Of a DNA stretch of 58,896 nucleotides, positions 12,447 through 58,896 are shown piece after piece; within the stretch, counting starts at the first letter, position 1, and the number at the start of each line of letters is the position of its first letter. Made by a program: the position numbers and the translations under genes. Under the pieces are notes generated by a model. It was not told the DNA's origin. It worked only from the letters and a program-made list of their open reading frames with translations, and did no database searches. Source of the DNA: Phycisphaerae bacterium (lineage in GTDB: Bacteria > Planctomycetota > Phycisphaerae > UBA1845 > Fen-1342); NCBI GenBank assembly GCA_022072445.1, contig JAJVHV010000029.1:1-58896 (forward strand), read 5' to 3'.

Positions 12447-12468
12447 CGGCGCGGCAGTTCGAATAGCG

Positions 12469-12485: not shown

Positions 12486-12514
12486 GGCGGCTGCGACCGG
12501 TCGTTGTCGGACTT

Positions 12515-13017: not shown

Positions 13018-13030
13018 TCCCGGCGGGCGG

Positions 13031-13056
13031 GTGGCGCGGTCAAGCGGTCGCGCCAC
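13031..13056 (+). terminator. Hairpin after the GYD gene
   Basis: GTGGCGCG pairs with CGCGCCAC (8 bp, 10-nt loop), starting 13 nt after the stop codon. There is no T-run, so this is a candidate only. Confidence 0.4.
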
Positions 13057-13096
13057 AGGGCTCTCGATTCGTCGATCCATCAAGCACCCGACCCAT

Positions 13097-13132
13097 CAAC
13101 ATGGCCGTGCGGCGCGACAGCCATGCCACGCG
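13097..13132. repeat. 36-bp palindromic dispersed repeat, copy 2
   Basis: It differs from copy 1 (12515-12550) at two positions only. Its stem has one G-U-type change (CATGGCCGT with ACAGCCATG). Confidence 0.85.
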
Positions 13133-13189
13133 CACGACGGCATGCTCTCGCGCTGGGCTTGAAGCCACTTCCGCTTTCCGCGTTCAGCC

Positions 13190-14839: not shown

Positions 14840-14917
14840 TGTTCGTGTGTTCCGGTTCGCGCCCGTGGGTAGATCGAAGTGCGCCCCGGGCGCTCGGATG
14901 GGTCGAGCGCGGCCGAG

Positions 14918-15241: not shown

Positions 15242-15268
15242 GATCCGTCCTCCCTCCGAGTCGAGCGC

Positions 15269-16549: not shown

Positions 16550-16558
16550 CCGCCAGCC

Positions 16559-17083
16559 TCAGTGATCGCGACCCGCGCGGACAAATGTCATCCGCTGCCG
16601 ATCCTTGATGACCCCCGGAAACTTGAGCACCTGGTTGTGCATCGCCACGTAGACGCCCGGCGCGATCAGCCGGCTGGCCAGCAGCGCCTCGGTGAGATTC
16701 TGAAACGCGTCGGTGTCGCGGAACTCATACGGCCGGATCGCCCCGGTCAGCACGACGGGTTTGCGCAGCTCGCCCAGGCCCGCGTGCAGCAGCTCGCCCG
16801 TCGCCGAGAGCGTGTCGGTCCCGTGAACCACCAGCACCGCGTCGTCCAGCTCGAGCGCCGACCGCACCGCCGAGAGAATTTTCTGCCGGTCTTCGGCGGT
16901 CATCTCGAGCGAATCCTTCGACATGACCGCCTCGTGGCGGACGCGCAGCGTCGGCAGGCGCAGATGCCGCAGCACGTCGTCGAGAATCGATCCGACGTTG
17001 CGCAGCGAACCGTCCGTCTCGTTATATTTCTTCTCGATCGTCCCGCCGGTGGTCAGGATCGCGATCTGCACGCGGTTGTTCAT
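16559..17083 (-). CDS. Single-domain asparaginase-type amidohydrolase
   Basis: A 174-residue protein covering only the N-terminal catalytic domain of type I/II L-asparaginases (usual length about 330). The two threonine-bearing motifs are intact: ILTTGGTIEKKY near the start and VVHGTDTLS in the middle, followed by VVLTGAIRPYE. Known asparaginases hydrolyse Asn to Asp; with the second domain missing, oligomer contacts and substrate could differ. The ATG at 17083 is preferred because the family begins here and a TATCAT hexamer ends 9 nt before it, with no Shine-Dalgarno. It is followed closely by an MFS gene. Confidence 0.85.
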   Translation of the reverse strand: MNNRVQIAILTTGGTIEKKYNETDGSLRNVGSILDDVLRHLRLPTLRVRHEAVMSKDSLEMTAEDRQKILSAVRSALELDDAVLVVHGTDTLSATGELLHAGLGELRKPVVLTGAIRPYEFRDTDAFQNLTEALLASRLIAPGVYVAMHNQVLKFPGVIKDRQRMTFVRAGRDH

Positions 17084-17092
17084 GCGGGCGGG

Positions 17093-17098
17093 ATGATA
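17093..17098 (-). promoter_or_regulatory. -10-like TATCAT before asparaginase (leaderless candidate)
   Basis: On the minus strand TATCAT ends 9 nt before the ATG, followed by CCCGCCCGC. Almost the same arrangement (TATCAT, CCCGCGC, ATG) precedes the lipoprotein gene starting at 49269. Confidence 0.45.
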
Positions 17099-17145
17099 CT
17101 CCACAGCCGTGCGGCATGAAACGTCCGCCAGGGGAGACCAGCCTC

Positions 17146-17211
17146 TGGGGGACCGGTGTCTGATCGATATTGATCCACCCGGGAAAAGACCGGTCGGAGA
17201 CCAGTCCCCCA
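17146..17211 (-). terminator. Imperfect inverted repeat between moaA and the asparaginase gene
   Basis: TGGGGGACCGGTGTCTGA (17146-17163) pairs imperfectly with TCGGAGACCAGTCCCCCA (17194-17211), 14 of 18 positions. It starts about 20 nt after the moaA stop on the minus strand and could end that transcript, or be a relic of a dispersed palindromic repeat. Confidence 0.35.
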
Positions 17212-17231
17212 AGGGCAAACTGACACTACCC

Positions 17232-18284
17232 TCATCCGCCGATCTGGCTCATCTGGCGGTTGCCGTAATGCTGATGGGCGTCTGGCTTGAGGACGACGCA
17301 GTCGAGGAAGGCCTGATGGAGGCCGGCGGCGTCGAGCGTGGGGCGCACGAACGGCCGCACGTCGATCTCGCCGCCGTCGAACAGGCAGCTCCGCAACTGC
17401 CCGTCAGGCGTCAGGCGCAGGCGATTGCACGTCGAGCAGAAGGGCGCCGACATAGCGTGAATAAAGCCGATCTTGCCGGCCGCCCCGCTCAGCCGGAAGA
17501 CACGCGCCGGACCGGAGCCCGCGTCGTGCGAGGCCGGCTCCAGGGGCCCCAGCGCCGTTTCGATGCGCCGGCGGATTTCGTCGTACGGCACGAACTGATC
17601 GGCGTCGCGCAGCAGCGAGCGGCCCAGCGGCATGAACTCGATGAAGCGGACGGTGCGGCGGTTGTCGAGCGTGTGGGCGGCGATCGCGGCGACTTCGTCG
17701 AGATTCAGCGATTTCATCACGACGACGTTGACCTTCACCGGCCCCAGCCCACACGCTTCGGCCGCGGCCATGCCGTCCAGCACGCGCGCCAGATCGCCGC
17801 GGCGTGTGACCTCCCGGAAGCGGTCGGGATCGAGCGTGTCGAGGCTGACGGTGACGCGGTCGACGCCGGCCGTTCGCAACCGGGTGGCGTTTTCTGCCAG
17901 GAGATGCCCGTTGGTGGTGAGCGAGATTTCGCCGCAGCCGTCCAGGCCGCGCAGCATTGCGACCAGCGTGGTCAGGTCGTGCCGCAGGAGCGGTTCGCCG
18001 CCGGTGAGCTTGAAGTCGCGGATGCCGTGCGAGAGTGCCGCACGGGCGACCTCGCGCATTTCCTCGTAGGTCAGGATTTCGGCCTTGGGCAGCCAGTGCA
18101 TGCCTTCTTCGGGCATGCAGTAAAGACACCGGTAATTGCAGTGATCGGTGACGCTGATGCGTAGCGTGCGCACGTAGCGGATGTCGCGCGGGCCCTGCGC
18201 TTCGGACAACAACGCGCTTCCGGCGCCGTTCACCGGCGACGAGACAGGCTCCTGTGGGATAGTCGGTAGCGCGATTGATCGCAT
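17232..18284 (-). CDS. moaA: GTP 3',8-cyclase, molybdenum cofactor synthesis
   Basis: A 350-residue radical SAM enzyme that rearranges GTP to 3',8-cyclo-7,8-dihydro-GTP, the first step of molybdopterin synthesis. The N-terminal 4Fe-4S site is CNYRCLYC (Cys49, 53, 56), with KLTGGEPLLR for SAM binding. A second, C-terminal cluster is shown by CSTCNRLRLTPDG and the later RSCL. The protein ends in Gly-Gly, as needed for activity in MoaA. Length is normal (about 330) with a 36-residue N-terminal extension. No other moa gene is in view. Confidence 0.95.
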   Translation of the reverse strand: MRSIALPTIPQEPVSSPVNGAGSALLSEAQGPRDIRYVRTLRISVTDHCNYRCLYCMPEEGMHWLPKAEILTYEEMREVARAALSHGIRDFKLTGGEPLLRHDLTTLVAMLRGLDGCGEISLTTNGHLLAENATRLRTAGVDRVTVSLDTLDPDRFREVTRRGDLARVLDGMAAAEACGLGPVKVNVVVMKSLNLDEVAAIAAHTLDNRRTVRFIEFMPLGRSLLRDADQFVPYDEIRRRIETALGPLEPASHDAGSGPARVFRLSGAAGKIGFIHAMSAPFCSTCNRLRLTPDGQLRSCLFDGGEIDVRPFVRPTLDAAGLHQAFLDCVVLKPDAHQHYGNRQMSQIGG

Positions 18285-18323
18285 CGTTTCGGTTCGGCGG
18301 CCCGGTCGGTCAGAGCAGTCTAT

Positions 18324-18329
18324 ATCATA
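18324..18329 (-). promoter_or_regulatory. -10-like TATGAT upstream of moaA
   Basis: It lies 39 nt before the moaA ATG within a short AT-rich patch (18320-18335), the only one in this gap. No clear -35 is seen. Confidence 0.4.
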
Positions 18330-18436
18330 TCATCTCTCGGCGAAATGGCGTCACGTACCGCCGTTGAACGCCGATGGTGTGGCGTGACGAAGGACGACGC
18401 CTCAAATCGACACCCATCGACGGCAAGCGCAGTGTG

Positions 18437-18454
18437 GTGCGTCGAGGGACGCAC
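18437..18454. repeat. Short hairpin (GTGCGTC GAGG GACGCAC)
   Basis: A 7-bp perfect stem with a 4-nt loop, followed by CCTACA. It has the look of a small dispersed palindromic repeat; no second copy was found in this window. Confidence 0.6.
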
Positions 18455-18586
18455 CCTACATGGAGTCTTGGCCGCCTGCACCGCACGTGCAGGCGCGTGC
18501 AGCCGCAGGACGTAGCGATCACCGGCCGTGGAGCGGCCACGAACGACACGGGAGCGTTGTGCCGAGCGGCGGGCAGGTGGCAGAGG

Positions 18587-18592
18587 TAAGAT
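18587..18592 (+). promoter_or_regulatory. -10-like TAAGAT before RF-like gene (leaderless candidate)
   Basis: TAAGAT ends 9 nt before the ATG at 18602. The nearest purine-rich stretch (AGAGG) is about 15 nt away, too far for a normal Shine-Dalgarno. Confidence 0.35.
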
Positions 18593-18601
18593 GAACGTCG
18601 C

Positions 18602-19114
18602 ATGCCCGAATCGCCGCGCGAGGCAATGTTGCTCCCGGACGCCGCGCTGCTGGCGCAGTGCGAGCTGCACACGTATCGGGCCAGCGGTCCGGGCGGGCAG
18701 AAGCGCAACAAGACGTCGTCGGCCGTGCGGCTGCACCATCGAACGACCGGTCTGACGGCGGTTGCCACGGAGAGCCGCTCGCAGCATGAGAACAGAGCCC
18801 GCGCGCTGCAGCGTCTGCGCGAGGCGATCGCGGTGAACATCCGTGAACCGCCGCCAGTCCGCGTGACTTTTCCCGACGCGGTCATGACCGCCGGCGGACG
18901 GCTGACGGTTGGCCGGCGAAGCCCGCACGTCTACGCGGTCATCGCATTGCTGCTCGATCTGCTGGCCGACAGCGGCGGCGCGCTGCCGCCGGTCGCGCTG
19001 CGCGCGGGAGTGACGGCGTCGAGCCTCACGCGGTTTCTTTCGGACCATCCGAAGGCCTGGGCGGAGGCGAACCGCATTCGTGCCGCGGCCGGCAGGCCGC
19101 GACTGTCGGACTGA
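18602..19114 (+). CDS. Peptide chain release factor-like (GGQ) protein, ArfB/YaeJ type
   Basis: A 170-residue protein with only the catalytic domain of class I release factors. The peptidyl-tRNA hydrolysis motif GGQ is at 31-33 in [18 protein letters not shown], followed by [11 protein letters not shown]. The codon-reading domains of RF1/RF2 are absent, as in ribosome-rescue factors ArfB and YaeJ. ArfB works by inserting a basic C-terminal tail in the empty mRNA channel; here the tail ([15 protein letters not shown]) is only moderately basic, so the rescue role is likely but not certain. The window also encodes tmRNA, the main rescue pathway. The ATG is preceded by TAAGAT at 9 nt. Confidence 0.85.
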
Positions 19115-37839: not shown

Positions 37840-38706
37840 TCAGGGTGTTCTTGAAAGCAAACCGCTCGAAACGAGCGTGCCGAATGACACGTCGCTTCGC
37901 ATGTAGAAACTGAGCTGGCCGTCCGGTTGCAGCGCCCAGGAAACCTCAATGAGGTTCGGTGGGATGAGTTCACCGGTCTGCGAGTAGACTTCGCCGTTGG
38001 CGGTCACCGACACACGAACGACCTCGAGCTTCAGGGTCGCGCGGCTGTGCGTCGGCTGGTACTCCGCCTCCAAGACCGTGAGCCGCAGCACGCCGACGGC
38101 GTCGCCCGGCGCCGACTGGCCGCCTATCGTCGCGAGCAGCGAGACGGGAATCTCGACTTCCTCGACCTCGCCCGGCTCGCGGATCGACAGCACGGGCCAG
38201 GCGATCGTGCCGTTGACGAGCAGGTTGTCGGCGGGGAACTCCTGTGAAAAGTCGAACGGGATCGGCTCGCCGGCGCTCGGGACGCCACGCCCGTCAAACG
38301 CGATGGTGTAGTTCGGGTTGTCGGGCAATCTGTATTCGAATGAGGGCGTGTCCTCCCACTCCGTCCAGAATGGGAGCAGGACCGACTGGCGCGTGACGCC
38401 GGTCCAGGCGCCCTTCATCGAACCGTCCAGTCCGACGCCCGCTTCGCCGGGCGGGCCCTGTGGCCCTGCCGGACCTTGCGGCCCCGCGGCACCGTCCGCG
38501 CCGGCGGGACCAGCCTCGCCGGCGGCGCCCGCCGGTCCCTGCGGCCCGGGCGCTCCGGGGATTTCGAGAAATTGATCGCCGCCGGAATCCGTGAAGCCAG
38601 CGCCCGGACAGCCGCCCATCGTGGTGAGCAACAAACCGGCCGCGGCCAGCAGCACGGACACGTTGGAGTGCTTCGGCAGCCGATACACGTTCGATTGCTT
38701 TGTCAT
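37840..38706 (-). CDS. Collagen-like repeat lipoprotein
   Basis: A 288-residue exported protein. The N-terminus is a lipoprotein signal with a cysteine at 33 (TTMGGC), so it is probably lipid-anchored. Residues 51-89 are thirteen Gly-x-y triplets rich in Pro, Gln, Ala and Glu (GPQGPAG, GPQGPPG), able to form a collagen triple helix. The remaining about 195 residues form a beta-rich globular domain with no family I recognise (contains [12 protein letters not shown] and [20 protein letters not shown]). A trimeric surface stalk is the natural inference. The ATG has an AGAGGA about 9 nt upstream. It is divergent from the trypsin-like gene. Confidence 0.8.
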
Positions 38707-39068
38707 GTTTCGCCATCCTCTTGAAATTCGATCCGGGGCTTCGGCCGCGCGCTTGCGCCTGCCGGGCGGTCGCGCGTGGGCGTGTGCCGCCGGAAGCAGT
38801 ACGCGCGGTGAGCCGAAAACTTCCGGCACGTGGGCGAGTATTTCGGTTCGGGGGGAGCAACGACCGCGGTTGCTCAACCGCGCAATCAGGCTCGGCGGCC
38901 GGAGTGGCTTCTTCGATTGCGTTCGGCGTTGAGACCGAACCAATGAGGCTGGGACCTGAACGCGGAACGAGCCGCAACGACGGATTCAGCGGAGGGGACG
39001 TGAGGAGTTATGATCTGGATGGCGCGGAGGACGAGAATGAGAGTCAAGCGAGAGCGATGGAGGGCGAG
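38707..39068. other. Divergent intergenic region of collagen-like lipoprotein and trypsin-like genes
   Basis: No gene is supported in these 362 bases, though a plus-strand frame stays open across them. The only clear signal is a TATGAT at 39009-39014 for the protease gene. Confidence 0.55.
39009..39014 (+). promoter_or_regulatory. -10-like TATGAT upstream of trypsin-like gene
   Basis: It lies 54 nt before the ATG at 39069 in GC-rich DNA. No -35 match. Confidence 0.4.
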
Positions 39069-39956
39069 ATGAGGCGGCTGGCTGTGTTGATTGTTCTGGG
39101 GGCGGCGACGGGTGCAGTTTCGCTTGCTGTGGTACCCGACACCGGGAGCGACACCCGGTTTCCGTGGGTGGGTCAGGTGGGGGGAGCGACCGGGACCGCC
39201 ATCGCCGCGCGCACCGTGATCACCGCCAGGCATAACGGCACCAGTACGTACGGATGGGGTGAGGAGATTTATTACGCGACACACCGGATTGAACACCCGA
39301 CGGCGGACATTGCACTGCTGATCTTCGACACAGACCTGCCGGGCTGGCACGCGCTCGGCGCGGACGCGCCGATCGACTCACCCATCTCCATGGTCGGCTG
39401 GGGCCATTGGGGCACGTTGAACGACGCGGGTGACGGCTATGTCATCTGGTGGTGGAGCGGCGGGAAACGAATCGCTGCCCCGAATGCGCTGCACGAGAAA
39501 TGGAATGTCCCCGGCGTCGGACCGAGTCTGATTTCGTGGCTGAATGTCAACGGGGATGCCGCTGCGGTGGCGGGCGACTCGGGCGGTGCTTTCTTCATCG
39601 ACGACAAGCTCGTCGGTGTGCTTGCTTTCGCCTTCAACAACTCAGGCGGCCGTCTGCCGGACTACGGGTTTGCCTCCCAGAACGGCGGGGTACCGTATCA
39701 CGGCAGCGGCGCCATCGACCTCACCGATCCAGAAATTCGCCAGTGGGTGCTGGAGAATTCTGTTCCGACGTGCGTGCCATGCGACACAAATTGCGATGGA
39801 TCTGTGAATGGCTTCGATGTTGAGCCGTTTGTTGACCTGCTGTCCGGAAGCCGGACGCCGTGCTCGCCGTGTGCGGGTGACGTCAACGGCGACGGCTCGG
39901 TGAACGGATTCGACATTGATGGATTCGCCGATGCGCTGACGGGGAACGCCTGCTGA
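39069..39956 (+). CDS. Secreted trypsin-like serine protease with dockerin-like C-terminal loops
   Basis: A 295-residue exported protease-like protein. Residues 1-20 are a signal peptide. The chymotrypsin triad is visible as His55 (ITARHN), Asp80 (TADIALL) and Ser171 (AGDSGGA). From residue 235 to the end, two EF-hand-like loops follow, NCDGSVNGFDVEPFVDLL and DVNGDGSVNGFDIDGFADAL, joined by a cysteine-rich linker (CSPCAG) with a final Cys. The tail is the same type as on the subtilase at 19385. The ATG at 39069 is chosen over one 12 nt upstream because GGAGG sits 5 nt before it. It ends 45 nt before the 3' end of tmRNA, which is on the other strand. Confidence 0.87.
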   Translation: MRRLAVLIVLGAATGAVSLAVVPDTGSDTRFPWVGQVGGATGTAIAARTVITARHNGTSTYGWGEEIYYATHRIEHPTADIALLIFDTDLPGWHALGADAPIDSPISMVGWGHWGTLNDAGDGYVIWWWSGGKRIAAPNALHEKWNVPGVGPSLISWLNVNGDAAAVAGDSGGAFFIDDKLVGVLAFAFNNSGGRLPDYGFASQNGGVPYHGSGAIDLTDPEIRQWVLENSVPTCVPCDTNCDGSVNGFDVEPFVDLLSGSRTPCSPCAGDVNGDGSVNGFDIDGFADALTGNAC

Positions 39957-45252: not shown

Positions 45253-45360
45253 CTCAGGTCACGGCTGGAGGGCGGAAAGCTGCTTGAGAGCATTCCCGCG
45301 CGAATCGGGCGCGTCACGCCTGAGACGCGGGTGCGACCGACCTTCTGGAGGAAACAAGAG

Positions 45361-47838
45361 ATGATCGCGACCCTGTTCCGCTCCGCATGCCTGTTGCTTC
45401 TGGCGGGGGCTACCCTGGTTCCCGCCAGCGCCGACGTCCGCGTCAAGAACCTTAAGACGCTGGTGGTGATCTACCGTGGCGACCGGGGATCGAAGGAGTA
45501 CATGAGCGACGCCGACGTCGAGTCGGCCCGCGCCGGCGTCGAGCTGGGCCGGCTGTTCTACTTCCGCAACAGCGCCGCGCGGCTGAACTGCGAACTGATC
45601 TGGCTGGTCGCCGACGCCCAGGCGCCCAAGAACGACGGACCCACCATGGAGCACATCGAGGCCGATCTCAAGCAGCGCGGCGTACGCAATGGGCAGTACG
45701 ACGGCATCTTCGTCACTGGCATCGGGCTCAGCGGAAACTGGGGCGGATTCAACATCTTCAACGGCACCGCGGCTTGCTTCGGCGGACATGGGGGACGTGG
45801 CGAGCTGAGCTGGTATCCATCACCCGACGCGACCGTGGCGTATGGGACGGCGTGGAATTTCGTCCACGAATTTCAGCACGCGATCGACCTGGTCACGGCG
45901 CAGGATTCGAACCGCCCCGACATGCTGCACGCCCACCCGTACACCGATCGCAACGAACCGTTCTTCAAGGGCTGCTACCAGGGCGGCGAGCACTGGGATT
46001 GGATCGCCTGCACATTTCGCGAGTTTGACGGCTGGACGGCCCTCAAGGGTGTGCACAACGCCTTTCTCGATTGCGCCGACGCCGACGGCGACGGATTGCC
46101 CGACGACGACGCGCGGCTGCCGACGGACGAGAAGCGCTTTAACAGCGATCCGACGAAGAAGGACACTGACGGCGATGGCTTGGACGACCTGGCCGAGTTC
46201 ACCGCCGATCGCTACGCCGGCAGCGAGCCGCGCGCCGCCGACACCGATGGCGACGGCACGCGCGACGGCGACGACCGCTACCCGCTGATCGCGCTGGCTG
46301 CCGAGATTCCGTTCGGAAGCGAAGCGCCGCTGCTGCGCTCGGTGTTCGCACGGAATGACGAGGGTGGCGATTGTCTGGTCAGCGCGGCTTGGAACTCCGA
46401 CGGGCTGACGCTTCGCTTCACCGCTCCGCGGCGCTTCGCCGTCGATGCCAAGCTCGACGGCAGCGCCGCCAACGGCTTCTGGGACGGCGGCGACACGTAC
46501 CTGCTGCGGATCACGCCCGACGATGCGCCGAATGCGACCGGCGGGAAGGTGGAGTTTCGTGGACTGGGGCTGAGCGGCCCGGTCGCGGGCGCCACGGTTC
46601 AAACGGCGCAGAGCGACGGCCGCTTCACGCTGACCACGACCATTCCGGCGCGGCTCGGGCAGGGTGTCAGCAAAGAGATCAACTACGGCGGCAAGCGCGA
46701 GCCCGAGGACGTGACAGACGGGCTGACGCTCGTTCCGGGGCGCGAGATCGGTGTCAACTTCGGCCTCGAGTTCGCGGATCATCAGCGCGACCTGTTGACG
46801 CCGCTGCACACAATGTACGCCGTGCGGCTGGGGCCGGCGGCGGGTGGTGGCGTGCGTCCGATCCTGCGCGGACCGGCGCTGACCAGCGCCCGCAGTCCGG
46901 TGGTCACCGTCGCGGGCGTCGCGGCGGACGCGCCGGTCGAGATCGTCTCGGGCTCGAGCGTGCTGGGCGCCCGAGTCGGCCCGGGCGACGTCATGCTGGT
47001 CGACATTCTGACGCGCGGCGCACCGGCTTCTCACGGCGGGATGCTCAAGGGCGGCCTGAAGCCGTACGAGCTCGACATCGCGGCCCGCGCCGGCGGCGCG
47101 AGCAGCGCGCCGCTGCGGATGCGAGTCGATGCCTCGGCGGCGGCGCCGGTCATCAAGCTCCAGGACGGCGAACTGCGAGCGGAGTGTGAGCCGCGCGCCC
47201 AGCTCGAGCTGTGGTGGGGCGTGAAAGGCATGCCCGCGGGCGTGCTCTTCGCGACGCGGGCCGACGAGGCGGGCGGCGTCGTGCTGAAGGTCGACGAGTC
47301 GCTGACGCGCGGCTGGCTGGTCAGCGCCTACGAAGGCAGCCGCTTCGAAAAGCTGGTCTACGTCGAGACCTGGCCGCAGATCGACCGGAACTTCCGCGGC
47401 GACGCGCCCGACCCGCGCCTGCCCGGCGACGCCTTCTCCTACCGGTTCGAAAGCTACCTGCCGCTACCGGAGGCCGTGCAGTACGAATTCGAGCTGGGCA
47501 GCGACGACGGCTCGCGGCTCTACGTCGACGACGAGCTGATCATCAATCACTGGGGCCACCACGGCATGGCGACGCGCCGCGCGACGGTGTCGCTGGCCGC
47601 CGGCGTTCACCGCCTGCGCATCGAGTATTGCGAGCTGGACGGCTGGGCCGGCGTGAAATTCCGCGGCGCGCCGCGCGGGACGCCGCTCAGCCCCGAATTG
47701 CCGGTACGCACGATTCCGGCCGCGCTTGCGTCGGTTGAGCTGATGGCACGGCAGAGCGACGCGCTCGGAAACGTCTCACCCTTCGTCAGCACGACGCCGG
47801 CGGGCGAGGCCAAACCGCAGCGCGCCGTGCGCAAGTGA
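45361..47838 (+). CDS. Secreted zinc metalloprotease-like protein with TSP3 calcium repeats and PA14 domain
   Basis: An 825-residue exported multidomain protein. Residues 1-24 are a signal peptide. The first domain has the zinc-protease motif HEFQH (His169, Glu170, His173) in NFVHEFQHAIDL, with further acidic and His residues after it. Residues 239-308 are thrombospondin type-3-like calcium loops (DADGDGLPDDD, DTDGDGLDD, DTDGDGTRDGDD). A beta-sandwich like DOMON/CBM9 follows (about 315-460), then Ig-like material and, near 690-785, a PA14 carbohydrate-binding-type domain (FELGSDDGSRLYVDDELII, GWAGVKFRG). The layout suggests an extracellular protease or glycan-directed enzyme; its substrate is unknown. 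GGAGG at 45347-45351 supports the ATG. Confidence 0.8.
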   Translation: MIATLFRSACLLLLAGATLVPASADVRVKNLKTLVVIYRGDRGSKEYMSDADVESARAGVELGRLFYFRNSAARLNCELIWLVADAQAPKNDGPTMEHIEADLKQRGVRNGQYDGIFVTGIGLSGNWGGFNIFNGTAACFGGHGGRGELSWYPSPDATVAYGTAWNFVHEFQHAIDLVTAQDSNRPDMLHAHPYTDRNEPFFKGCYQGGEHWDWIACTFREFDGWTALKGVHNAFLDCADADGDGLPDDDARLPTDEKRFNSDPTKKDTDGDGLDDLAEFTADRYAGSEPRAADTDGDGTRDGDDRYPLIALAAEIPFGSEAPLLRSVFARNDEGGDCLVSAAWNSDGLTLRFTAPRRFAVDAKLDGSAANGFWDGGDTYLLRITPDDAPNATGGKVEFRGLGLSGPVAGATVQTAQSDGRFTLTTTIPARLGQGVSKEINYGGKREPEDVTDGLTLVPGREIGVNFGLEFADHQRDLLTPLHTMYAVRLGPAAGGGVRPILRGPALTSARSPVVTVAGVAADAPVEIVSGSSVLGARVGPGDVMLVDILTRGAPASHGGMLKGGLKPYELDIAARAGGASSAPLRMRVDASAAAPVIKLQDGELRAECEPRAQLELWWGVKGMPAGVLFATRADEAGGVVLKVDESLTRGWLVSAYEGSRFEKLVYVETWPQIDRNFRGDAPDPRLPGDAFSYRFESYLPLPEAVQYEFELGSDDGSRLYVDDELIINHWGHHGMATRRATVSLAAGVHRLRIEYCELDGWAGVKFRGAPRGTPLSPELPVRTIPAALASVELMARQSDALGNVSPFVSTTPAGEAKPQRAVRK

Positions 47839-49532: not shown

Positions 49533-52500
49533 ATGTCGCGCGTGAATCCGCACCATTCCTTGAGCTTACTTATGGGTCCGATGTTGGCTGCGATCGCGGC
49601 AGCGCTGTTGATCGTCGCGCCGGCCGCGGCGCGACAGGACAGCGGCGCCGACGGTTCGCAGGTCGCGCCGCCGGGACAGCCCGTGCCAACGTCACAGCCG
49701 ACGACGCAGGGCGTTACGTCCGAGTCGTACGAGCGGCTGAAGAAGCTGCGCGAGGAAGCTCAGCGGATGCGCGAGGAGCGCATGCGGCGGCGCGGCGTGA
49801 CGAGCCGGCCGACTCTCCCGCCGGGCGAGGATGCATCGACGATTCAGCCGCCGCCGTCGGACAACAAGCCGCCCACGCCGCCGGAGAATCCGCCGATGCC
49901 GCCGAATGGCGAGGCGACTCCGGCCGAATCAACGACGCAGGAGCAGCCGGCGGATCAACCGCCTCCCGGCGAGACGCCACCTGCCGACGTGCAGGATTCG
50001 TCCACGCAACCGACTCCGCAGGATGGGACGAGCCGGCCGTCGTTGGAGGAACTGCGGCGTCGAGCGCGCGAGTCGGCGGCGCGACGCGCGGCGGAGACGC
50101 CGGGCGGTGAAGCGGGCGCACCGCCCGCGCAGGATGGCGCTCCGCCAGTGCAGCCGAATGGAAACAATCGCCGCTCGCGGACGTTCCGTCGGCCGGGTGC
50201 CCGGCCGGCCGAGGGTGAGGCGGCGGGGGAGCATCCTGGCGAGGCGCCGGCCGGCGAGGAATCGGCGGCGTCACAGACGGCGCCGAAGAGCGACGAGGAG
50301 TGGTTCAATTTCTCGAAGATGCCGTGGGAAGACGTGATCCGGCACTTTGCCCGGCGGATCGGCAAGCCGCTGATCGGCGAAGACGAACTGAACATCGGCG
50401 GCGAGCTGACCTACGTGAACACGTCGTACAAGTTCACGAAAGAGGAGGCGATCGACGAGCTGAACATGCTGCTGATGCGCGCGGGGGAGGGCTGGCGCTT
50501 CGTCGAGAACCAGCATCACATTTTCGCGGTGCCGCTCAACGAGATCAGCAGTCACGTGGACCTGCCGCACACGTACGAGACACTGGACAAGTTTCTGACG
50601 GCCAGTCCGCGCGACATGGACTTCGTGATCGTCTACATGCTGGTCAAGGAGCGTCCGGCGCAGGAGCTGATCGACATTTTCGGCGACGCGTTGCCGGATT
50701 ACACGCGGATGTCGGTCGTGGCCGACACGAACAAGGTGAAAATCGTCGCGTTGGCCAAGGACATCCGCAAGCTGCTCTCGCTGATGGAGCGGATCGACAT
50801 CGCCAAGAACGACCCGCGCGAGACGCGCGTGCTGAAGGTCAAGAACAACGCGCGGCAAATGGAGAACATCATCCGCGAGATGCTTGGCTTGTCGCAGCAG
50901 ACGCGGCTGATCGACCCGCGCACGCGCCAGCCGATCCAGCCTCAACAGCCCGAAGCCGACATCAAGATCATCGCCGACGACCGCACCAACACGCTGATCG
51001 TCAAGGCCACCAAGTCGAAGCTGGACGAGATCGAGAGCACGCTGAAGGAGGTTGATCGCCAGCCGGACATCGGCGAGTTCAAGACCGAGGTCATCGAGAT
51101 CAAGAACGGCAACGCGACCGAGATCGCCAACACGCTCAACACGATTTTCGACCAGGAAAAGAACCGCCGGCCGATGTGGCAGCAGGTGCGGACGGCGACG
51201 ACGCGGCGGCCGGGGCAGCCGGTTCAGCCCGGTCAGCCGGTGCGGCAGCCGGGCCAGCCCGAGGGCGACATCTTCCTGCCCGAGGACCCGCAGGAGCAGG
51301 CCAAGAAGCTGATCAGCGTCGTGGCACACGAGCGGACCAACTCGATCATTGTTTACGCCAACGCCGACGGGCAGAAGCGCGTCAAGGAGATGCTCGAGAT
51401 CATCGACAAGCCGGCCCCCAGCAACTTCCGCACGTTCAAGCTCGAACACGCCCAGGCGGAAGAAATCTTCGAGACCGTCAACAGCTTCATTCAGAACATG
51501 CGCGGCGCGATTCCGCGCGGCGGTCCGGGTGGCGCCGGCCGCACGTCGACCGTCACGCTCGACACCACCAACAATGCCCTGCACGTCTTCGCCGAACGCG
51601 AAGAGATGACCAACATCGAGAACATCATCAAGCTGCTCGACGTGCAGGCCCCCGAGGGCACCAAGCATATCGTCGAGCTGATCAACCTCGTGCCCAGCCA
51701 GGTGGCGCAGACGCTCCAGGCCATGCTCGACGGACAGAGCGCCGCCGGCGGCGCGGCCAGCCGGCTGCGCGGACTGCGACCGCGCGGCGCGCCGGGTGGC
51801 GGCGCTCCGGCGGCCGCCAAGAGCGGCGCGCAGTTCATCCCGCTCGACGACGCGTCGATCCTGATCGTCATCTGCGAAGACGATGAGTGGACCAAGATCG
51901 AAGAGACCATCAAGCTCTGGGACGAGAAGTACACCACCAACACGCCCACGCTGCGCTCGTTTGTCATCGCCAAGGGCGACGCGCAGGCCATCGCCCAGAT
52001 TCTCGGCCAGTTCTACCGCTCCGGCGGCCGCGGCGGCCCGGGCGCCGCCCAGCAGACGGTCGAGATCGCACCCGACGGCGACGTCATCCACGTCAAAGCG
52101 ATCAAGCGCACGCTCGATGAAATCGAAGCACTTGTCAAAACGCTCGACGTCGAGCCGCAGCGCGATCCCCTCGTGATTCTGCCGCTGGCCAACGCCGACG
52201 CCAATACCGTCGCACAGCTCGTTCAGCCGCTGCTCTCCGCGGCCGGGGGCGGCGGACGCGGACTCCGCGGCGGCGGACCGGGACAGGCCAACAGCGTCGT
52301 GCCCGAGACCGCGACCAACTCGCTCATCGTGCGGGCCGATCCGGCCACGCTCGAGAAGGTCAAGGAATTCGCGCAGCGCATGGACGAGCAGGTCGCTGCG
52401 CAGACCCCCGAGCGGCGATTCTTCGTACTGAAAAACGCCAATCCGCAGGAAGTCGCCACCGCCATCACGTCGCTTTTCAATCCGCAGGGCGGCGGCGGCG

Positions 52501-55500
52501 GACGGCGCGGCGGCGGCGGCGGCGGGATGCAGGTGCGGGCCGCGGTGGCCGGCGCGCAGGTCGTGGTCGACGCGCCCAAGGACAAGTTCCCCGAGATCGA
52601 AAAGACCATCGCCCAGTTCGATGACCTGGGCGGGCGCGAAGTGGTCATCAAGACCTTCAAGATGCCCGGGTCCGACGTCGGCAACATCGCCCAGCGGCTC
52701 TCGCTGGCGTTTCAGAACAAGCTCGGCCGCGGCGGCATGGTGACGCGCTTCGACGCCGACCAGGCCAGCGAGACCATCCTGCTGACGTGCAGCCGCGACA
52801 TGGAGGCCGAGGCCGAGAAGCTGCTCAACGAGTACAAAGAAGCCGGCGCCCTGATGGTGACGTTGGTCGAGTTCCGCCAACTGGCGCACGCCACCGCGCC
52901 GGAGGCGGCCCAGTGGCTGCAAGCGCAGCTCAACGCCCAGTTCAAGGACAAGGGCCGCCTGATCACCGGCCAGATTTCCGTCACGCCCGACGCCCGCACC
53001 AATCGCATCATCATCAATGGGCCGGCCGCGGTCGTGAAAGCCGGCATGCAACTCATCGAGCAATATGACATCCCGCTGGCGATGTCGACCGAGTCGCCGC
53101 AGACCATTTTCGCCACCGACATCCGCAAGTTGCCCGGCGTCGACGTCAGTACGCTGGCGTCCAACCTGCAGCGCGTGTTCGACGGCCGCCCGGCGCGGCC
53201 CGACAAGCTGCGCTTCACCTTCACCGCCGACCGCAGCACCGAGCAGCTCATCTACACCGTGCCCAAGGACGCCACCGCCGAGGTGACCGAGCTGATCGAC
53301 AAGTACGCGGCGGAGGCCGAGGGGCTTTCGCCCGAGCAGGAGTTCGTCGTCGTCCAGAACGCGGACGCGGCCTACGTCGCCAACCAGGTGCGCACGACGC
53401 TTTCGACCCAGATTTCCAAGAAGCAGGGCGCCGACGTGGCGCAGCGCATCAACATCTCGGTCGACGAGCGGCTGAACCGCATCGTGATCAACGCGCCCAA
53501 GATGATCGTGCCGATCGCCAAGGCGCTGATCGACGAGTTCGACAAGGTCGCGACGCGCGAGAGCCCGCTTCAGATCATCCCGCTGGAAAACGCCGATGCG
53601 AACACGATCGTCGGGCTGCTGCGGCAGGTGATGGCCGAGAAGCTCAAGACCAACCGCAACCTCCAGTTCTCGGCCGAGCCGATGACGAATTCGATCCTGG
53701 TCGCCGCCGGCAAGGAGGATTTCGAGGAGATCGCCAAGCAGATCAAGACCTTTGACGACATGGCCAAGGTCTCGCGCTCCGAGCCGCGCATCTTCGAGGT
53801 GCTCAACGCCAACCCGTGGGAGCTGGTCAACGTCCTGAACGGCACGTTTCTGCCGCGCGGCGTGGGTCGCGCCCAGCGCCCGGGGCAGGAGCTGGTCTTC
53901 AACGTGGTCGGCAACCAGAGCATCATCGTTCAGGCCCCGCCCGAGAAGCTCGGCGAGATCGAGAAGCTGATCACCAAGCTCGATCAGATCGGCAGCAAAA
54001 AGGTCGAAGTCCGCACCTACGAGCTGCCCGGCATCGGCGAGCAGATCGACACGCTCGCGCGGCAGGTCGAGCAGGCCGTCAACGCCGGCAAGAGCCAGCG
54101 CGAGCAGCGCGTCAGCATCACGACCTTCGCGGCGGCCGACACCTGGATCGTCACGGCGATGCCCAGCCAGTTCGCCGAGGTCGAGGCCATGATGGACAAG
54201 TTCAAGGCCCTGACCGTCAAGGACATGATCAAGACGGTGTTCATCACGCTCCAGTTCACCGACGCGCAGCAGGTGGCGCAGACGGTGACGGAGATGGCCA
54301 AGAAACAGGTCACGCAGTCGCGCGGCAGCCGCGCAGCCCAGAATTTTAGCATCCTGCCCGAGCCGCGGACCAACCGGCTGATCGTCCGCGCGCCCGAGTC
54401 CATGATCGAGGACGTGCAGGCCGTCGTGAAGGAAATCGACATCGACGCCCCACAGGACAACATGGCGACGATCGAGCTGAAGCACGCCGACCCGAACGAG
54501 ACGGCGACGATGATCAATACCATGTTCGGCTCGGGCAAGCGCCGCGGTGCGTCCGGCAGCGTGACGCAGGACGTGCAAGTGGTCGTCAACAACGCCACGC
54601 TGGTCGTCAAGGCGCCGCCCAAGACGCTGACGCAGATTCAGGAACTGGTGGCGGCGATCGACGCCGAGAATTCCGAGGGCCTGACCGTCAAGACGTATGA
54701 CCTGAAGGTGTTGAACGCCCAGACCGTACAGGGCCAGGTGATGATGTATCTGACCTCGCTGGGCAGCAACACCAAAAAGGGCCAGATGAAGCCCGGTGCG
54801 TTCGCCGAGACAACCACCAACACGCTGGTCGTGATCGCCCCGCCCCAGGCGCTCACGTTCATCGACCTGCTCGTGTCGCAGCTCGAGAGCAAGTCGCCGC
54901 CCAGCGCCGAGAACCGCGCCTACGTGCTGCGCAACGCGCGGGCCGACCAGGTGGCGCAGAACGTGCAGCAGATGCTGCAAGCCAAGGTGACCGAGCGCGA
55001 GGGCGCCGCCCGCAAGACCATTGTCCCGACGCTCGTCCTGCCCGACACGGTCGGCAATCGCCTCATGGTCTTCGCCCCGCAGGAGTATCAGACCCTGGCC
55101 GGCGAGCTGATCAATGTCATCGACGAGAAGGTCGACACCGGCCAGGTCGTCCGCATCATCGGCCTCAAGCAGGCCGACGCCGCCCAGCTCGCGACGTCGA
55201 TCACCGCCCTGATTCAGGCCGGTTCGATCGGCGGCTCGGGCGGCAGCGGCGCCGGGGCCCGCACCGCGAAGGTTACGGCCGACGCCGGCAGCAATTCGCT
55301 GATCATCGCCGGCCTGCCGAACGAGGTGGGGGAGATTCAGCAGTACATCGGCGAACTGGATACCAACAGCCAGGTCGTGCCCGAGATGCGCGTCTTCAAG
55401 CTCGAGAATTCCAGCTCGTACGACGTCGCCGAAGCACTCAAGTCCACGTTCGCGGCGGGCGGTCCGGGCGGCCCGGTGACCGTGACCGAAGACGAGTGGT

Positions 55501-58500
55501 ACAACCGGCTGATCGTCTCGGCCAGCAAGCGCAAGATGCGCGAGGTCGAGGGGCTGGTTCAGTTGCTGGATGCTCCGCCGGCTGTCGCCGAGGACGGCAG
55601 CAGTGTCACCGGCCGCGAGATTTACTATGTCGACGTGGTCCGTGGCAAGGCCAGCCGCATCGCCTGGGACGTTGAAGACGCCTTGCCGCCTGAAGACAAG
55701 GGTGGCCCGACGATCGACTACGACTGGGACGGCGAGTACGTGAAGGTCACGTGCCGCCCGTCGGAATTTCCCAAGATCGAGAAGATGATCAAGGACCTGG
55801 ACCGCCGCTCGAAGGTCGAGCGCAAGGTCCAGATTCGGCAGGTCAAGGACGTTGACCGCGTCATTCAATACCTGGCGGATCAGGAGGGGATCGAGGTTCA
55901 AACCGCCGACACCGGCAAGGCCAAGACGATCGTCGAGACGTTGTGGGGCGAGAGCGAGAAGCCCGAGCTGGAGAACCGGCGGCGTCGGCCGCGACGCGAG
56001 AATCCGGAGCGCGTCGAGCCGGCTCGCGATTCAGGCGGCGCTCAGCCCTGCTGGCTCGACATGGACGCGTTCTACCGCGCGTTCGACGCTGATTTCGACG
56101 ATTCGGCCCAGTCTGACGCTGCGCCGCCCGCGTCGCAGTCGAGCGCGCCGGCCACCTCGGCGCCGCCGCCCGGCACGCAGCTTCCGCCGGCTGAGTTGAC
56201 CACGTCGCCCGTGGCGCCCGCCAATCCGGTTGCGAACCTGGTCGAGCAGCAGGTGGACGAGGCCCTGGGCCGGCTCGATCCGCGCCGCCCCACAGCCACG
56301 CGGCCCTCCGCGCCGGCCAACGGCAACGGCGAAGAGCCGCCGCTGGAGCGCGAACGGGCCAAGGTCGTGAAACTGCCCGACGGACGCGTCCTGATCAGCG
56401 GGCCGCAGCGCGAGGTGGACTCCATCGGCGAAGCCATCGAGCTGCTTGAGGAGGATCTCGCGCTCGGCGAGGTCATCCGTATTTTCCGTTTCGAGTATGG
56501 CGATGTTGCGGCCGCCGCTCAGGTGGTCGACCGCATGTTCAACGAGCGGCAGCAGAACGCGATGCGCGGCCTGAATCCGCAGATGCAGCAGCAGCTCATG
56601 CAGCAGCAAATGCTGCAACAGATGCAGCAGGGCGGGCAAGGCGGACCCGCCGGCCAGGGCGGCGCAGGCGGCCGAGGCGGCCGCGGCGCCGCGGGTGGTC
56701 GCTTCGGCGGCCGCGGCGGCGGTGGCGACGAGGGCAGCGGCCTGCTCGGGCCGCTGGCCAGCATGTTCGGCGGCCGCGACGAATCCGAGGCGGATCGCCG
56801 CAGCGACTCGGGCAAGCGCTCGACGCTCGGCGGCGAGCGCGTGCGGCTGGCGGTTGATCTCGGCCACAATTATCTGATCGTCAAGTGTGAAGCGTCGGAC
56901 CTGCCCGAGCTGCGCGAGTTGCTCCGGGAGCTGGACATTCCGCCCGGTGAGGTCGAGGTCAAGGTCTTTCAGCTCAAGAACCTCGACGCCACCGACACGG
57001 CCAACAACATCCGCGACGTGCTGGGCGTCAGCCGCGCCCAGCAGCAGCGCACGCAGCGCAGCCAGCGCGGCAACCAGGGCGGGTTCATTCCCGGCTTCGG
57101 TAATTTCGGCGGCGGCATGAACTCCGGCAACCCGTTCATGCAGATGTTTCAGCAGCAGCTCGTCTCCGTGGCCGGCTCGGACGACCCCGGCGCGCGGATC
57201 GAATCGGTCGAGATCGTCCCCAACGCCATCACGAATTCGCTGATGGTCTCGGCTCCGCCCGACGTCATGGACGTCATCTCGCGCGTCATCAACGAGCTCG
57301 AAGAGCTCGAAGGCCGCGACACGATCGTCATCCGCCGCTACCAGCTCAAGAACGGCCGCGTCGACGACATCGTCCCGTTTCTCGAGGAAATCTTCGCCGC
57401 CACCGGCGCCGCACCCGCGGTGGGCGGCGGCCGGCGCGGCGGACAGGGGGCGGTACGCTCACCCAACCAGCTTGGTCCGGTCACTGTTTCGGGAGACCCG
57501 CGCACGCGCACCATCATCTATACCTGCGAGGCCAAGGACGTCGAGACCGTCGAGGCCCAGATCGAAGCCCTCGACATCGTCGGTTCGCTCAACGACGCCG
57601 AGTCCTACGTCTGTCAGTTCGGCGACGCGACCAACATCGCCGGCGTCGTCGAGGCCATCTACGCCGGAGCCGGCGGCGGCGCAGCTCCCCGCGCCGGGCG
57701 CGGCGGCCAGGGCGGAGCGCGGCCCGCGGCCGGCGGCGGCGACGTGCGCATCGTCGCCGAGGAAATGACCAACACGATCATCGTCTGGGGACCGCCCGAC
57801 AAGCGTGAGGTCATCCTCGAGAAGATCGAAGAGCTCGACGCGCGCTACGAGATGGAGGTCCGCGAAATCCCGCTCGTCCATGCCGATCCCGACGACATCG
57901 CCGAAAAGCTGACGTCCATGTTCGCCGGCCGCGCCGGCGCGTCGATCTCCGGCGGCGGCGGCCGTCGCGGTCAGGGCGCCGCGGCGCAGGGCAGCGGCCG
58001 CGTCGTCATCGTCGGCGACACGCAATCGAAAAAGCTGCTCGTCCGTGCCCCGGAGCACATCTACAAGCAGATATTGTCCGTCGTGCAGGTGCTCGACACT
58101 CAGCCCGAGAATCTGCAGATCAAGCGCTTCGAGCTCAAATACGCCAACGCCGAAGCCGCCGTCGCCAAGCTTACCGAAGCCATGCAGCAGTACATCCAGC
58201 TCTCCAGCCTGACGCAGAGCTCGAGCACTGGCGGCCGTCCGAAGCTACCGTTCGACGCATTCACGGCGGTGCCCGATTCTCGCACCAACGGCGTGCTGGT
58301 GGTCGGCTCGCAGCAGACGTTCATGTTCGTCAAGCAGGTGCTCGACGCCTACGATGTGCAGATCGGCGAAGAGGGGCAGCAGCAGATCCGCCTGATCTCC
58401 ATCCCGCTCGGGCAAGACGCCGTCGCGCTGGGCGCCGAGGTCATGGATCTGGTCAACGCCACCGAGCGCAGTATCGCCGAGCAGGAGGGCCGTCGGCCCA

Positions 58501-58896
58501 AACAGGTCGCGATCGGCTCCAATCCGGAAACAAATTCGATTATCGTCTCCGCGGACCCGTCGATGTTCAGCCAGGTGGAGAGCATCGTGAAACAAATCGG
58601 TGATGCGTGGGAAAACGAGGGTCGCGGAAAGCGCTCCTCCATCGTCCTCCAGTTGAAAAACGTCTCCGCGTCGCAGTTCGAACGCGTCATTCAGGACCTC
58701 CAGTCCAACGGCCCCGGCGGCACCGCAGGCTCCACGCGCCGCCGCAGCATCAGCAATGTCGGCGGCCAGCCCGCGCGCAGCACGACGCCCACCGCCACCC
58801 CCGGCGGCGCCAACCGTCCGCGCAACGGCAGCGGCATTCAGCCCGGCGCCCGACCGACGGGCGGCGCACGCCCCGCGGGCGGCACGCGACCCGGCG
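49533..58896 (+). CDS. Giant secreted protein of about thirty tandem secretin N-domain-like modules (partial, runs off window)
   Basis: The frame is open from the ATG at 49533 to the last base: at least 3,121 residues, stop outside the window. Residues 1-34 are a signal peptide (AAIAAALLIVAPAAA), then a Pro/Gln/Arg-rich linker to about 250 and an N0-like domain (WFNFSKMPWEDVIRHFARRI). After that come about thirty modules of 70-100 residues with one pattern: a strand with a KNANPQEVA-like turn, a helix, a Gly-rich loop, then TNSLIV-A and a helix ending in LD. Examples are TNSLIVRADPATLEKV, TNRLIVRAPESMIEDV and TNSIIVSADPSMFSQV. This is the N1/N2 fold of type II/III/IV pilus secretins. A linker interrupts the array around 2140-2280. 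No secretin pore domain is seen before the window ends in Gly/Pro/Arg-rich sequence. AGGTGA overlaps the spacer before the ATG. Confidence 0.9.
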   Translation, partial: MSRVNPHHSLSLLMGPMLAAIAAALLIVAPAAARQDSGADGSQVAPPGQPVPTSQPTTQGVTSESYERLKKLREEAQRMREERMRRRGVTSRPTLPPGEDASTIQPPPSDNKPPTPPENPPMPPNGEATPAESTTQEQPADQPPPGETPPADVQDSSTQPTPQDGTSRPSLEELRRRARESAARRAAETPGGEAGAPPAQDGAPPVQPNGNNRRSRTFRRPGARPAEGEAAGEHPGEAPAGEESAASQTAPKSDEEWFNFSKMPWEDVIRHFARRIGKPLIGEDELNIGGELTYVNTSYKFTKEEAIDELNMLLMRAGEGWRFVENQHHIFAVPLNEISSHVDLPHTYETLDKFLTASPRDMDFVIVYMLVKERPAQELIDIFGDALPDYTRMSVVADTNKVKIVALAKDIRKLLSLMERIDIAKNDPRETRVLKVKNNARQMENIIREMLGLSQQTRLIDPRTRQPIQPQQPEADIKIIADDRTNTLIVKATKSKLDEIESTLKEVDRQPDIGEFKTEVIEIKNGNATEIANTLNTIFDQEKNRRPMWQQVRTATTRRPGQPVQPGQPVRQPGQPEGDIFLPEDPQEQAKKLISVVAHERTNSIIVYANADGQKRVKEMLEIIDKPAPSNFRTFKLEHAQAEEIFETVNSFIQNMRGAIPRGGPGGAGRTSTVTLDTTNNALHVFAEREEMTNIENIIKLLDVQAPEGTKHIVELINLVPSQVAQTLQAMLDGQSAAGGAASRLRGLRPRGAPGGGAPAAAKSGAQFIPLDDASILIVICEDDEWTKIEETIKLWDEKYTTNTPTLRSFVIAKGDAQAIAQILGQFYRSGGRGGPGAAQQTVEIAPDGDVIHVKAIKRTLDEIEALVKTLDVEPQRDPLVILPLANADANTVAQLVQPLLSAAGGGGRGLRGGGPGQANSVVPETATNSLIVRADPATLEKVKEFAQRMDEQVAAQTPERRFFVLKNANPQEVATAITSLFNPQGGGGGRRGGGGGGMQVRAAVAGAQVVVDAPKDKFPEIEKTIAQFDDLGGREVVIKTFKMPGSDVGNIAQRLSLAFQNKLGRGGMVTRFDADQASETILLTCSRDMEAEAEKLLNEYKEAGALMVTLVEFRQLAHATAPEAAQWLQAQLNAQFKDKGRLITGQISVTPDARTNRIIINGPAAVVKAGMQLIEQYDIPLAMSTESPQTIFATDIRKLPGVDVSTLASNLQRVFDGRPARPDKLRFTFTADRSTEQLIYTVPKDATAEVTELIDKYAAEAEGLSPEQEFVVVQNADAAYVANQVRTTLSTQISKKQGADVAQRINISVDERLNRIVINAPKMIVPIAKALIDEFDKVATRESPLQIIPLENADANTIVGLLRQVMAEKLKTNRNLQFSAEPMTNSILVAAGKEDFEEIAKQIKTFDDMAKVSRSEPRIFEVLNANPWELVNVLNGTFLPRGVGRAQRPGQELVFNVVGNQSIIVQAPPEKLGEIEKLITKLDQIGSKKVEVRTYELPGIGEQIDTLARQVEQAVNAGKSQREQRVSITTFAAADTWIVTAMPSQFAEVEAMMDKFKALTVKDMIKTVFITLQFTDAQQVAQTVTEMAKKQVTQSRGSRAAQNFSILPEPRTNRLIVRAPESMIEDVQAVVKEIDIDAPQDNMATIELKHADPNETATMINTMFGSGKRRGASGSVTQDVQVVVNNATLVVKAPPKTLTQIQELVAAIDAENSEGLTVKTYDLKVLNAQTVQGQVMMYLTSLGSNTKKGQMKPGAFAETTTNTLVVIAPPQALTFIDLLVSQLESKSPPSAENRAYVLRNARADQVAQNVQQMLQAKVTEREGAARKTIVPTLVLPDTVGNRLMVFAPQEYQTLAGELINVIDEKVDTGQVVRIIGLKQADAAQLATSITALIQAGSIGGSGGSGAGARTAKVTADAGSNSLIIAGLPNEVGEIQQYIGELDTNSQVVPEMRVFKLENSSSYDVAEALKSTFAAGGPGGPVTVTEDEWYNRLIVSASKRKMREVEGLVQLLDAPPAVAEDGSSVTGREIYYVDVVRGKASRIAWDVEDALPPEDKGGPTIDYDWDGEYVKVTCRPSEFPKIEKMIKDLDRRSKVERKVQIRQVKDVDRVIQYLADQEGIEVQTADTGKAKTIVETLWGESEKPELENRRRRPRRENPERVEPARDSGGAQPCWLDMDAFYRAFDADFDDSAQSDAAPPASQSSAPATSAPPPGTQLPPAELTTSPVAPANPVANLVEQQVDEALGRLDPRRPTATRPSAPANGNGEEPPLERERAKVVKLPDGRVLISGPQREVDSIGEAIELLEEDLALGEVIRIFRFEYGDVAAAAQVVDRMFNERQQNAMRGLNPQMQQQLMQQQMLQQMQQGGQGGPAGQGGAGGRGGRGAAGGRFGGRGGGGDEGSGLLGPLASMFGGRDESEADRRSDSGKRSTLGGERVRLAVDLGHNYLIVKCEASDLPELRELLRELDIPPGEVEVKVFQLKNLDATDTANNIRDVLGVSRAQQQRTQRSQRGNQGGFIPGFGNFGGGMNSGNPFMQMFQQQLVSVAGSDDPGARIESVEIVPNAITNSLMVSAPPDVMDVISRVINELEELEGRDTIVIRRYQLKNGRVDDIVPFLEEIFAATGAAPAVGGGRRGGQGAVRSPNQLGPVTVSGDPRTRTIIYTCEAKDVETVEAQIEALDIVGSLNDAESYVCQFGDATNIAGVVEAIYAGAGGGAAPRAGRGGQGGARPAAGGGDVRIVAEEMTNTIIVWGPPDKREVILEKIEELDARYEMEVREIPLVHADPDDIAEKLTSMFAGRAGASISGGGGRRGQGAAAQGSGRVVIVGDTQSKKLLVRAPEHIYKQILSVVQVLDTQPENLQIKRFELKYANAEAAVAKLTEAMQQYIQLSSLTQSSSTGGRPKLPFDAFTAVPDSRTNGVLVVGSQQTFMFVKQVLDAYDVQIGEEGQQQIRLISIPLGQDAVALGAEVMDLVNATERSIAEQEGRRPKQVAIGSNPETNSIIVSADPSMFSQVESIVKQIGDAWENEGRGKRSSIVLQLKNVSASQFERVIQDLQSNGPGGTAGSTRRRSISNVGGQPARSTTPTATPGGANRPRNGSGIQPGARPTGGARPAGGTRPG

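Follow-up and report, generated by a model that had tools for sequence, protein, structure and literature searches.

The N-terminal part of a probable giant GspD-type secretin with some thirty N-domain modules in a Phycisphaerae bacterium

We analysed a 58,896-nucleotide stretch of a Phycisphaerae genome (the window; contig C28 of genome G000, family f1) and found its right-hand end to be occupied by a single very long reading frame (Table 1). The frame is open from an ATG at 49533 (alternative GTG at 49443) through the last whole codon at 58895, which bears out the one unbroken plus-strand frame described in an earlier note on this DNA, and, as the contig stops at 58896, its open end is the contig edge. 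Openness alone is little proof of a gene here, because an antisense frame of 1,876 residues (50271-55901, minus strand), probably a by-product of GC-rich codon use, is equally open; judged from the sequence, the case for a giant gene rests on homology rather than on the openness of its frame. The Pfam Secretin_N profile (PF03958) matched 23 stretches of the frame with an E value of 1.2e-205, and the NCBIfam profile for GspD (TIGR02517) matched it with 2.8e-162, profile position 1 aligning at residue 258. A module profile of our own, built on the window's repeats and iterated on proteins of six genomes, counted 30 modules (the last one weak, E 0.04), in line with the earlier note's figure of about 30. 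Because the TIGR02517 alignment begins so far upstream of these, an N0-like domain and one extra N1-type module appear to precede the 30. The spacers in the array measure 6-21 residues, the 137-residue linker A excepted, many modules carry internal Gly-rich loops, and a Pro/Arg-rich low-complexity stretch reaches from the signal-peptide-like N-terminus to about residue 255. The Pfam search detected no secretin pore (PF00263) in the window part of the frame. N1 and KH domains share a common fold; a KH_SLS1 Pfam match spans a single module, and we rejected a third protein family as its source.

Table 1. Features of the giant frame in the window, with the evidence for each.
Feature	Coordinates	Strand	Evidence or remark
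N-terminal 3,121 residues of a probable giant secretin, 3' end off the contig	49533..58895	+	PF03958, TIGR02517
Signal-peptide-like N-terminus, MSRVNPHHSLSLLMGPMLAAIAAALLIVAPAAARQ	49533..49640	+	translation, by eye
N0-like domain, residues ~256-345	50298..50567	+	TIGR02517 from residue 258; model of low confidence
First N1-type module, residues ~346-425	50568..50807	+	AlphaFold model, XcpQ matches
Array of 30 Secretin_N (N1-type) modules, residues 432-3070	50826..58742	+	own profile, PF03958, four-module model
Long linker A, residues 2091-2227	55803..56213	+	position is that of the first/second gene border in family f2
Start of linker B, Gly/Pro/Arg-rich, cut by the contig end	58743..58895	+	continues most likely on contig C39

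Upstream of the frame (38.7-49.4 kb of the window), no type II secretion system (T2SS) gene was found among ten ORFs searched against Pfam and nine against NCBIfam, so that the window's secretin appears to stand apart from a T2SS cluster. These ORFs encode a trypsin-dockerin protein, a dihydrolipoyl dehydrogenase, a PA14 protein and others without assignment. The putative trypsin-like dockerin protein and the PA14 protein (38700-39956 and 45331-47838, both plus strand) are possible export substrates; that secreted dockerin-type proteins are the substrate is a guess.

The remainder of the gene lies almost certainly on a second contig of the same genome, C39. There, a frame of 1,781 residues, open at the contig edge, carries a signal-peptide-like segment followed by 12 further modules and then the PF00263 pore (E 2.8e-51). 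The ends of C28 and C39 do not overlap, and a gapless join preserves one frame, as it would by chance in one case of three; neither by eye nor in a start-codon scan did we find an ATG, GTG or TTG before the hydrophobic segment of the C39 frame. In G012 (4,144 residues), G015 (4,598), G023 (4,522) and G032 (4,557), the corresponding N-terminus and pore are joined in one unbroken frame, and it is from this orthology that we infer the continuity of C28 and C39. The natural reading is that the G000 protein forms one chain of at least 4,902 residues, with 40-42 counted modules, a preceding N1-type module and an N0 domain, and we consider it likely that a giant GspD-type outer-membrane secretin is encoded here, with its N-terminal two thirds in the window. 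The earlier note had described a secreted protein with or without a pore at its C-terminus. By orthology, the frame does end in a secretin pore, which upholds the first alternative for the fused form and disfavours a free pore-less filament, and, since the chain most likely ends in that pore, the protein is better described as an exported periplasmic/outer-membrane protein. Three more secretin-pore frames occur in G000 (602, 543 and 1,005 residues; C39:11287-12267 plus, C1:321947-322438 minus and C26:1311-1847 minus).

Structure prediction assigned the modules a secretin fold. An AlphaFold model of residues 1646-1944 (10-row alignment) contained four strand-helix-strand-strand-helix copies at a mean pLDDT of 74, while a model of residues 256-520 (12 rows; mean pLDDT 71) gave the same order of elements for the first N1-type module (pLDDT about 72-90) and a weak N0 part (pLDDT blocks of 42-70). 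The pTM was 0.35 for the four-module model, low between modules, and 0.58 for the N-terminal model, and this moderate confidence leaves the placement of one module against the next unpredicted. The top Foldseek rows for the models were secretins. VIA-align matched the four-module model to the XcpQ N-domains (5ngi; Z 11.4, rmsd 3.8, 131 aligned) and the N-terminal model to XcpQ/GspD chains near Z 10, XcpQ covering model residues 72-254 or 89-255; PulD (6hcg) aligned with residues 9-171 of the latter model, which include the low-confidence N0 part (Z 8.3, rmsd 6.0, 138 aligned). Profile searches of the PDB returned chiefly GspD chains, plus the Deinococcus chain 8co1. The predicted module structures thus agree with the N1 fold proposed earlier, the N-domains of XcpQ/GspD being the best matches at Z 10-11.

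Giant frames of this type are widespread among related bacteria. Whole single frames ending in a pore, recognised as a local pore-profile match directly after the last module, were found in 40 genomes, with 35-61 modules and 3,580-6,169 residues. These 40 comprise 19 of the 20 loci of one set (36 modules in G014 to 61 in G380; the 20th, G318, belongs to another lineage and has 11), 17 genomes of another set (36-50 modules), and G012, G015, G023 and G032 (35-40 modules); G004, its 5' end cut at a contig edge, is counted among them, and G013, cut before the pore, is left out. The longest member (L164, G380:C18:5500-25499; frame 444-18950, minus strand) has 6,169 residues with 61 modules and a pore. 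Across the class, an N0-N1 profile at E 1e-9 matched 212 of 297 genomes, some of the matches being ordinary secretins, and among the matches listed at least 14 families have frames above 2,000 residues (the longest again being that of G380), so that the presence of such arrays in other Phycisphaerae, raised in the earlier note, is confirmed and their modules have been counted. Of 61 genomes searched with a 288-residue N-terminal piece, 60 had matches at E 0.001, some to its module part alone, within frames of up to 5,021 residues.

A genome-collection search with an 11-row alignment yielded 79 loci, 78 of them with a module count (L092 has none). For the 39 control loci, titled Pseudomonadota/Proteobacteria, Desulfo-/Deltaproteobacteria, Bdellovibrio-type, Oligoflexia or Nitrospirae, our module profile gives 2-3 modules per locus and, even at E 1, no count above three; the profile was trained on the giants, and distant secretins may be somewhat undercounted by it. 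Among the 32 loci titled as planctomycete or Phycisphaerae, counts run from 6 (cut by a contig edge) to 46. L159, the sole Planctomycetales locus of the 78, has 9 and 8 modules in two frames, and the other seven loci are from Armatimonadota (8 and 4), Verrucomicrobia (6, 2 and L108) and two further bacteria (30 and 3). All such counts vary by a few with the cut-off (E <= 1, 0.01 or 0.05, E itself depending on the set searched), one L159 frame, for example, having 9 or 11 modules. Closed frames with a pore among the named loci include L097 (22 modules), L105 (30), L141 (34) and L140 (46); shorter members therefore exist, as the pore of L097 follows after 22 modules (2,475 residues). L105 (JAKANS010000049.1, 'bacterium isolate WY5.bin88'; 3,178 residues) is not titled a planctomycete. 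Outside Planctomycetota, L102 (Armatimonadetes) has 8 modules and a pore, and L108 (Verrucomicrobia) has several overlapping frames of 2-6 modules each. In a phylum-wide PF00263 search, the matches listed from outside the class were mostly about 300-1,500 residues long, with family f73 at 2,221-2,331.

The order of the modules is strictly kept within lineages. Reciprocal best modules were fully colinear between G000 and G012 (32 of 32), G015 (36 of 36) and G008 (36 of 36), compared with at most 14 colinear modules in 1,000 shuffles of G000 against members of its family. Orthologous modules share about 48% identity within the family and the best paralogues inside one protein about 30%; together with the conserved order, this supports, within the family, the earlier suggestion that the expansion is old and kept by selection. 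Colinearity with G000 was lower in other families of the order (G032, 15 of 20, shuffle maximum 10; G053, 10 of 16, maximum 10), and for other orders the values lay close to chance (G281, 9 of 17, maximum 9; G380, 9 of 13, maximum 8), while among themselves G281-G506 (41 of 42) and G130-G281 (40 of 40) were colinear again. Because the order hardly exceeds that of shuffled arrays across orders, only the architecture, and not each module, is conserved at that distance; in keeping with this, we found no strong single-module orthology in the two cross-order comparisons G000-G281 and G000-G380. Colinearity within lineages but not across orders indicates that every lineage has an ordered module set of its own, which it retains.

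In several families, the array is distributed over adjacent genes. Two genes make up the locus in f8 (G053, 2,813 and 1,758 residues; G033, 2,792 and 1,748; G050, 3,041 and 1,718), likewise in f4 (G048, G045 and G060) and, in another order, in G277 (1,741 and 2,431 residues). In the 30 f8 genomes that have a listed row, frames stay at or below 3,270 residues, whereas all 16 listed f7 genomes reach at least 3,977, a comparison that includes some contig-cut frames. G027 (f2) has three genes of 1,290 residues (N0 region and 10 modules), 1,254 (14 modules) and 1,605 (14 modules and pore), with the pore in the last gene only and, by eye, a signal-peptide-like start in each; G034 (f2) has the same three, the first cut by the contig edge. 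By module count, the gene borders of split loci coincide with the long linkers A and B of the fused proteins. Long frames without a pore include the first and second genes of split loci, L153 and one frame of L159, each with a further secretin-module frame nearby. L153 (27 modules) and L159 (9-11) are closed pore-less frames adjoining other secretin-module frames, and are likely to be more split giants. The array comprises up to three segments, namely A (N0 and about 8-27 modules), B (about 8-24) and C (about 11-15 and the pore), which some families encode separately and others join in a single chain, G000 most likely belonging to the fused kind. A tree of the pore and last modules supports f1 (100/100), f7 (100/100) and a split clade of f4, f8 and f2 (96/90); as it leaves the order among the three unsettled, their history may have involved one or two fusions or else a fission.

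Fused proteins can retain a signal-peptide-like segment in mid-chain. A hydrophobic segment ending in AQ (13 proteins) or GQ (2) occurs in every one of 15 fused f7 proteins at 14-15 modules before the pore (15 of the 16 listed, G462 being left out; the script found 14, and G521, missed because of a His, was recognised by eye), and it is at this site that f2, f4 and f8 begin a further gene, which again encodes a signal-peptide-like N-terminus. Where linker B is long, as in ten of the f7 proteins, this segment ranks within the top 0.3% of the array's hydropathy windows. The motif was defined by a cut-off of our own choice, and the script also picked up some ten comparable sites that fall within modules of the 15 proteins. 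In f1, an AxA-[QN] form occurs in 4 of 13 proteins (G000 on C39, G002, G008 and G014), the rest having a degenerate hydrophobic segment or none. Linker A of f7 carries a C-[VAIL]-L-P motif in 11 of 15 proteins, followed in 9 of these by GQ, AQ or CQ. This PCVLP-type motif, found for example near residue 1,340 of G032, places a conserved Cys in an exported protein; linker A of the window protein reads PCWLDMDAF.

Internal translation starts are a poor explanation for these segments. In 10 of 10 separate segment genes, the signal peptide is preceded by a stop and by an ATG that carries a Shine-Dalgarno-like motif. Among 20 fused proteins, a start codon with such a motif lies near the segment in just two (G456 and G521); 14 have an in-frame start without the motif, and 4 (G049, G058, G000 and G002) have no start in the scanned stretch. 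Given this rarity in fused proteins, we disfavour internal initiation; the segment may rather be a site cut by signal peptidase, an element with a membrane or hinge function, or a relic of gene fusion. If cutting took place, the fused giant would be a polyprotein whose linkers A/B are cut by signal peptidase I and whose two to three N-domain segments then stack end to end, in the manner envisaged for the separately encoded segments of f2, f4 and f8. We hold this to be possible if doubtful: the invariable [AG]Q-ending segment of f7, a deep clade in our tree, the scarcity of Shine-Dalgarno-like starts in fused proteins and the second motif in linker A all point towards it, yet the segment may as well be a fossil or a membrane or hinge element, few f1 proteins have the AxA-[QN] form, similar sites lie within modules, and an in-frame start of some kind lies near the segment in most of the 20 fused proteins, motif-less starts being known to exist.

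As to function, the genes next to the giant in relatives would suit a T2SS- or pilus-like role. In G053, the giant pair adjoins GspE (T2SSE and MshEN), GspF and PilM-type genes, and in G012 the giant adjoins GspF and GspK. Of 22 genomes, at least 13 have a same-strand GspF gene no more than 20 kb upstream (G002, G010, G011, G012, G014, G033, G046, G053, G085, G130, G281, G506 and G518); for at most nine of the 22, no GspF within that distance upstream was among the matches listed. We propose that the chain would be exported by Sec and that its C-terminus, on C39 in our genome, would form the usual secretin pore in the outer membrane, with some 42-43 N1-type modules and the N0 domain reaching from the pore toward an inner-membrane platform. 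Each module would most likely make one ring with its copies in other protomers, as in ordinary secretins, and a stack of these rings would form an unbroken conduit. If a ring adds 2.5-4 nm, our own estimate from the six-ring, 35 nm channel of Thermus and from GspD dimensions, such a stack could measure about 105-170 nm, matching the need of a very wide periplasm. The conduit may serve a type II secretion or type IV pilus-like machine, presumably in association with a T2SS platform, the stacked N-domains guiding a pseudopilus, a pilus or a folded substrate from the inner-membrane platform, and separate pore-less segments may act as pipe sections that dock end to end. If the rings do stack, the number of modules should track the width of the periplasm. 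The full combination, namely a conduit of more than 100 nm made of 35-61 rings, a polyprotein cut into pipe sections and a module number that acts as a ruler of periplasm width, is speculative and, taken whole, rather unlikely.

Alternatively, the modules might hang together like beads on a string, as a flexible chain or scaffold that occupies the periplasm or connects an ordinary secretin pore with the inner membrane. Long low-complexity linkers, the Gly-rich loops and the low pTM between modules would suit such a chain, but we consider it improbable: most spacers measure just 6-21 residues, some families keep pore-less segments in genes of their own, in register with the fused proteins, and N1-type modules form rings in solved secretins. 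That the long frame is an assembly artefact of collapsed or chimeric repeats is highly improbable and, for the family, rejected, because, even though our contig ends within a repetitive gene, 40 other assemblies share the architecture in one frame through the pore, several giants stand on single-contig assemblies (G023, G032, G036, G130, G281 and G518), and the diverged modules keep a conserved order. The preferred reading is a giant GspD-type secretin whose N1-type modules would stack as rings.

To our knowledge, the secretins solved so far bridge the periplasm by few rings, and a secretin with 35-61 ring modules is extreme for the family. The giants may help to explain the passage of folded proteins or pili across a wide planctomycete periplasm. 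The segment genes are pore-less N-domain stacks made as separate, apparently exported proteins, suggesting that stacks may assemble from sections, and the fused proteins, with their conserved mid-chain signal-peptide-like segments, might represent a bacterial export polyprotein. A report of many huge proteins in Planctomycetota does not use the word 'secretin' in its main text (PMC11573180). We found no description of a giant planctomycete secretin among the papers listed by our searches (titles and abstract openings, covering few subscription journals and no bioRxiv). Each of the domains is known; the scale, the segmentation and the mid-chain signals are the features without a description in that literature.

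Among known systems, GspD/XcpQ/PulD (5wln, 5wq7, 5zdh and 6hcg) are the closest, having the same plan of a signal-peptide-like start, an N0-like domain, N1-type modules and a PF00263 pore; they are the best matches in sequence and fold, and GspE, GspF and GspK genes lie near the giant in relatives. The giants differ from GspD in their number of modules (35-61 in the 40 whole frames, compared with 2-3 in the 39 controls), in their length of 3.6-6.2 thousand residues, and in having up to three segment genes or internal signal-peptide-like segments. Deinococcus radiodurans DR_0774 (8co1), which is PilQ-like, matches in sequence and fold, but its 740-residue PDB chain lacks the giant array. Other secretins of Planctomycetota, with 1,200-1,500 and 2,221-2,331 residues, have more N modules than the controls and far fewer than the giants (G318 has 11, and L159 has 8 with a pore), and are possible intermediates. 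The nearest precedent for a longer stack is PilQ of Thermus thermophilus, which likewise extends the N-domain stack on a secretin: two reports describe six stacked rings, N0-N5, of 13 protomers (PMC5745081) and a channel about 35 nm long (PMC4463427). Whereas that protein builds its six rings from 757 residues, the giants have about 40 or more modules.
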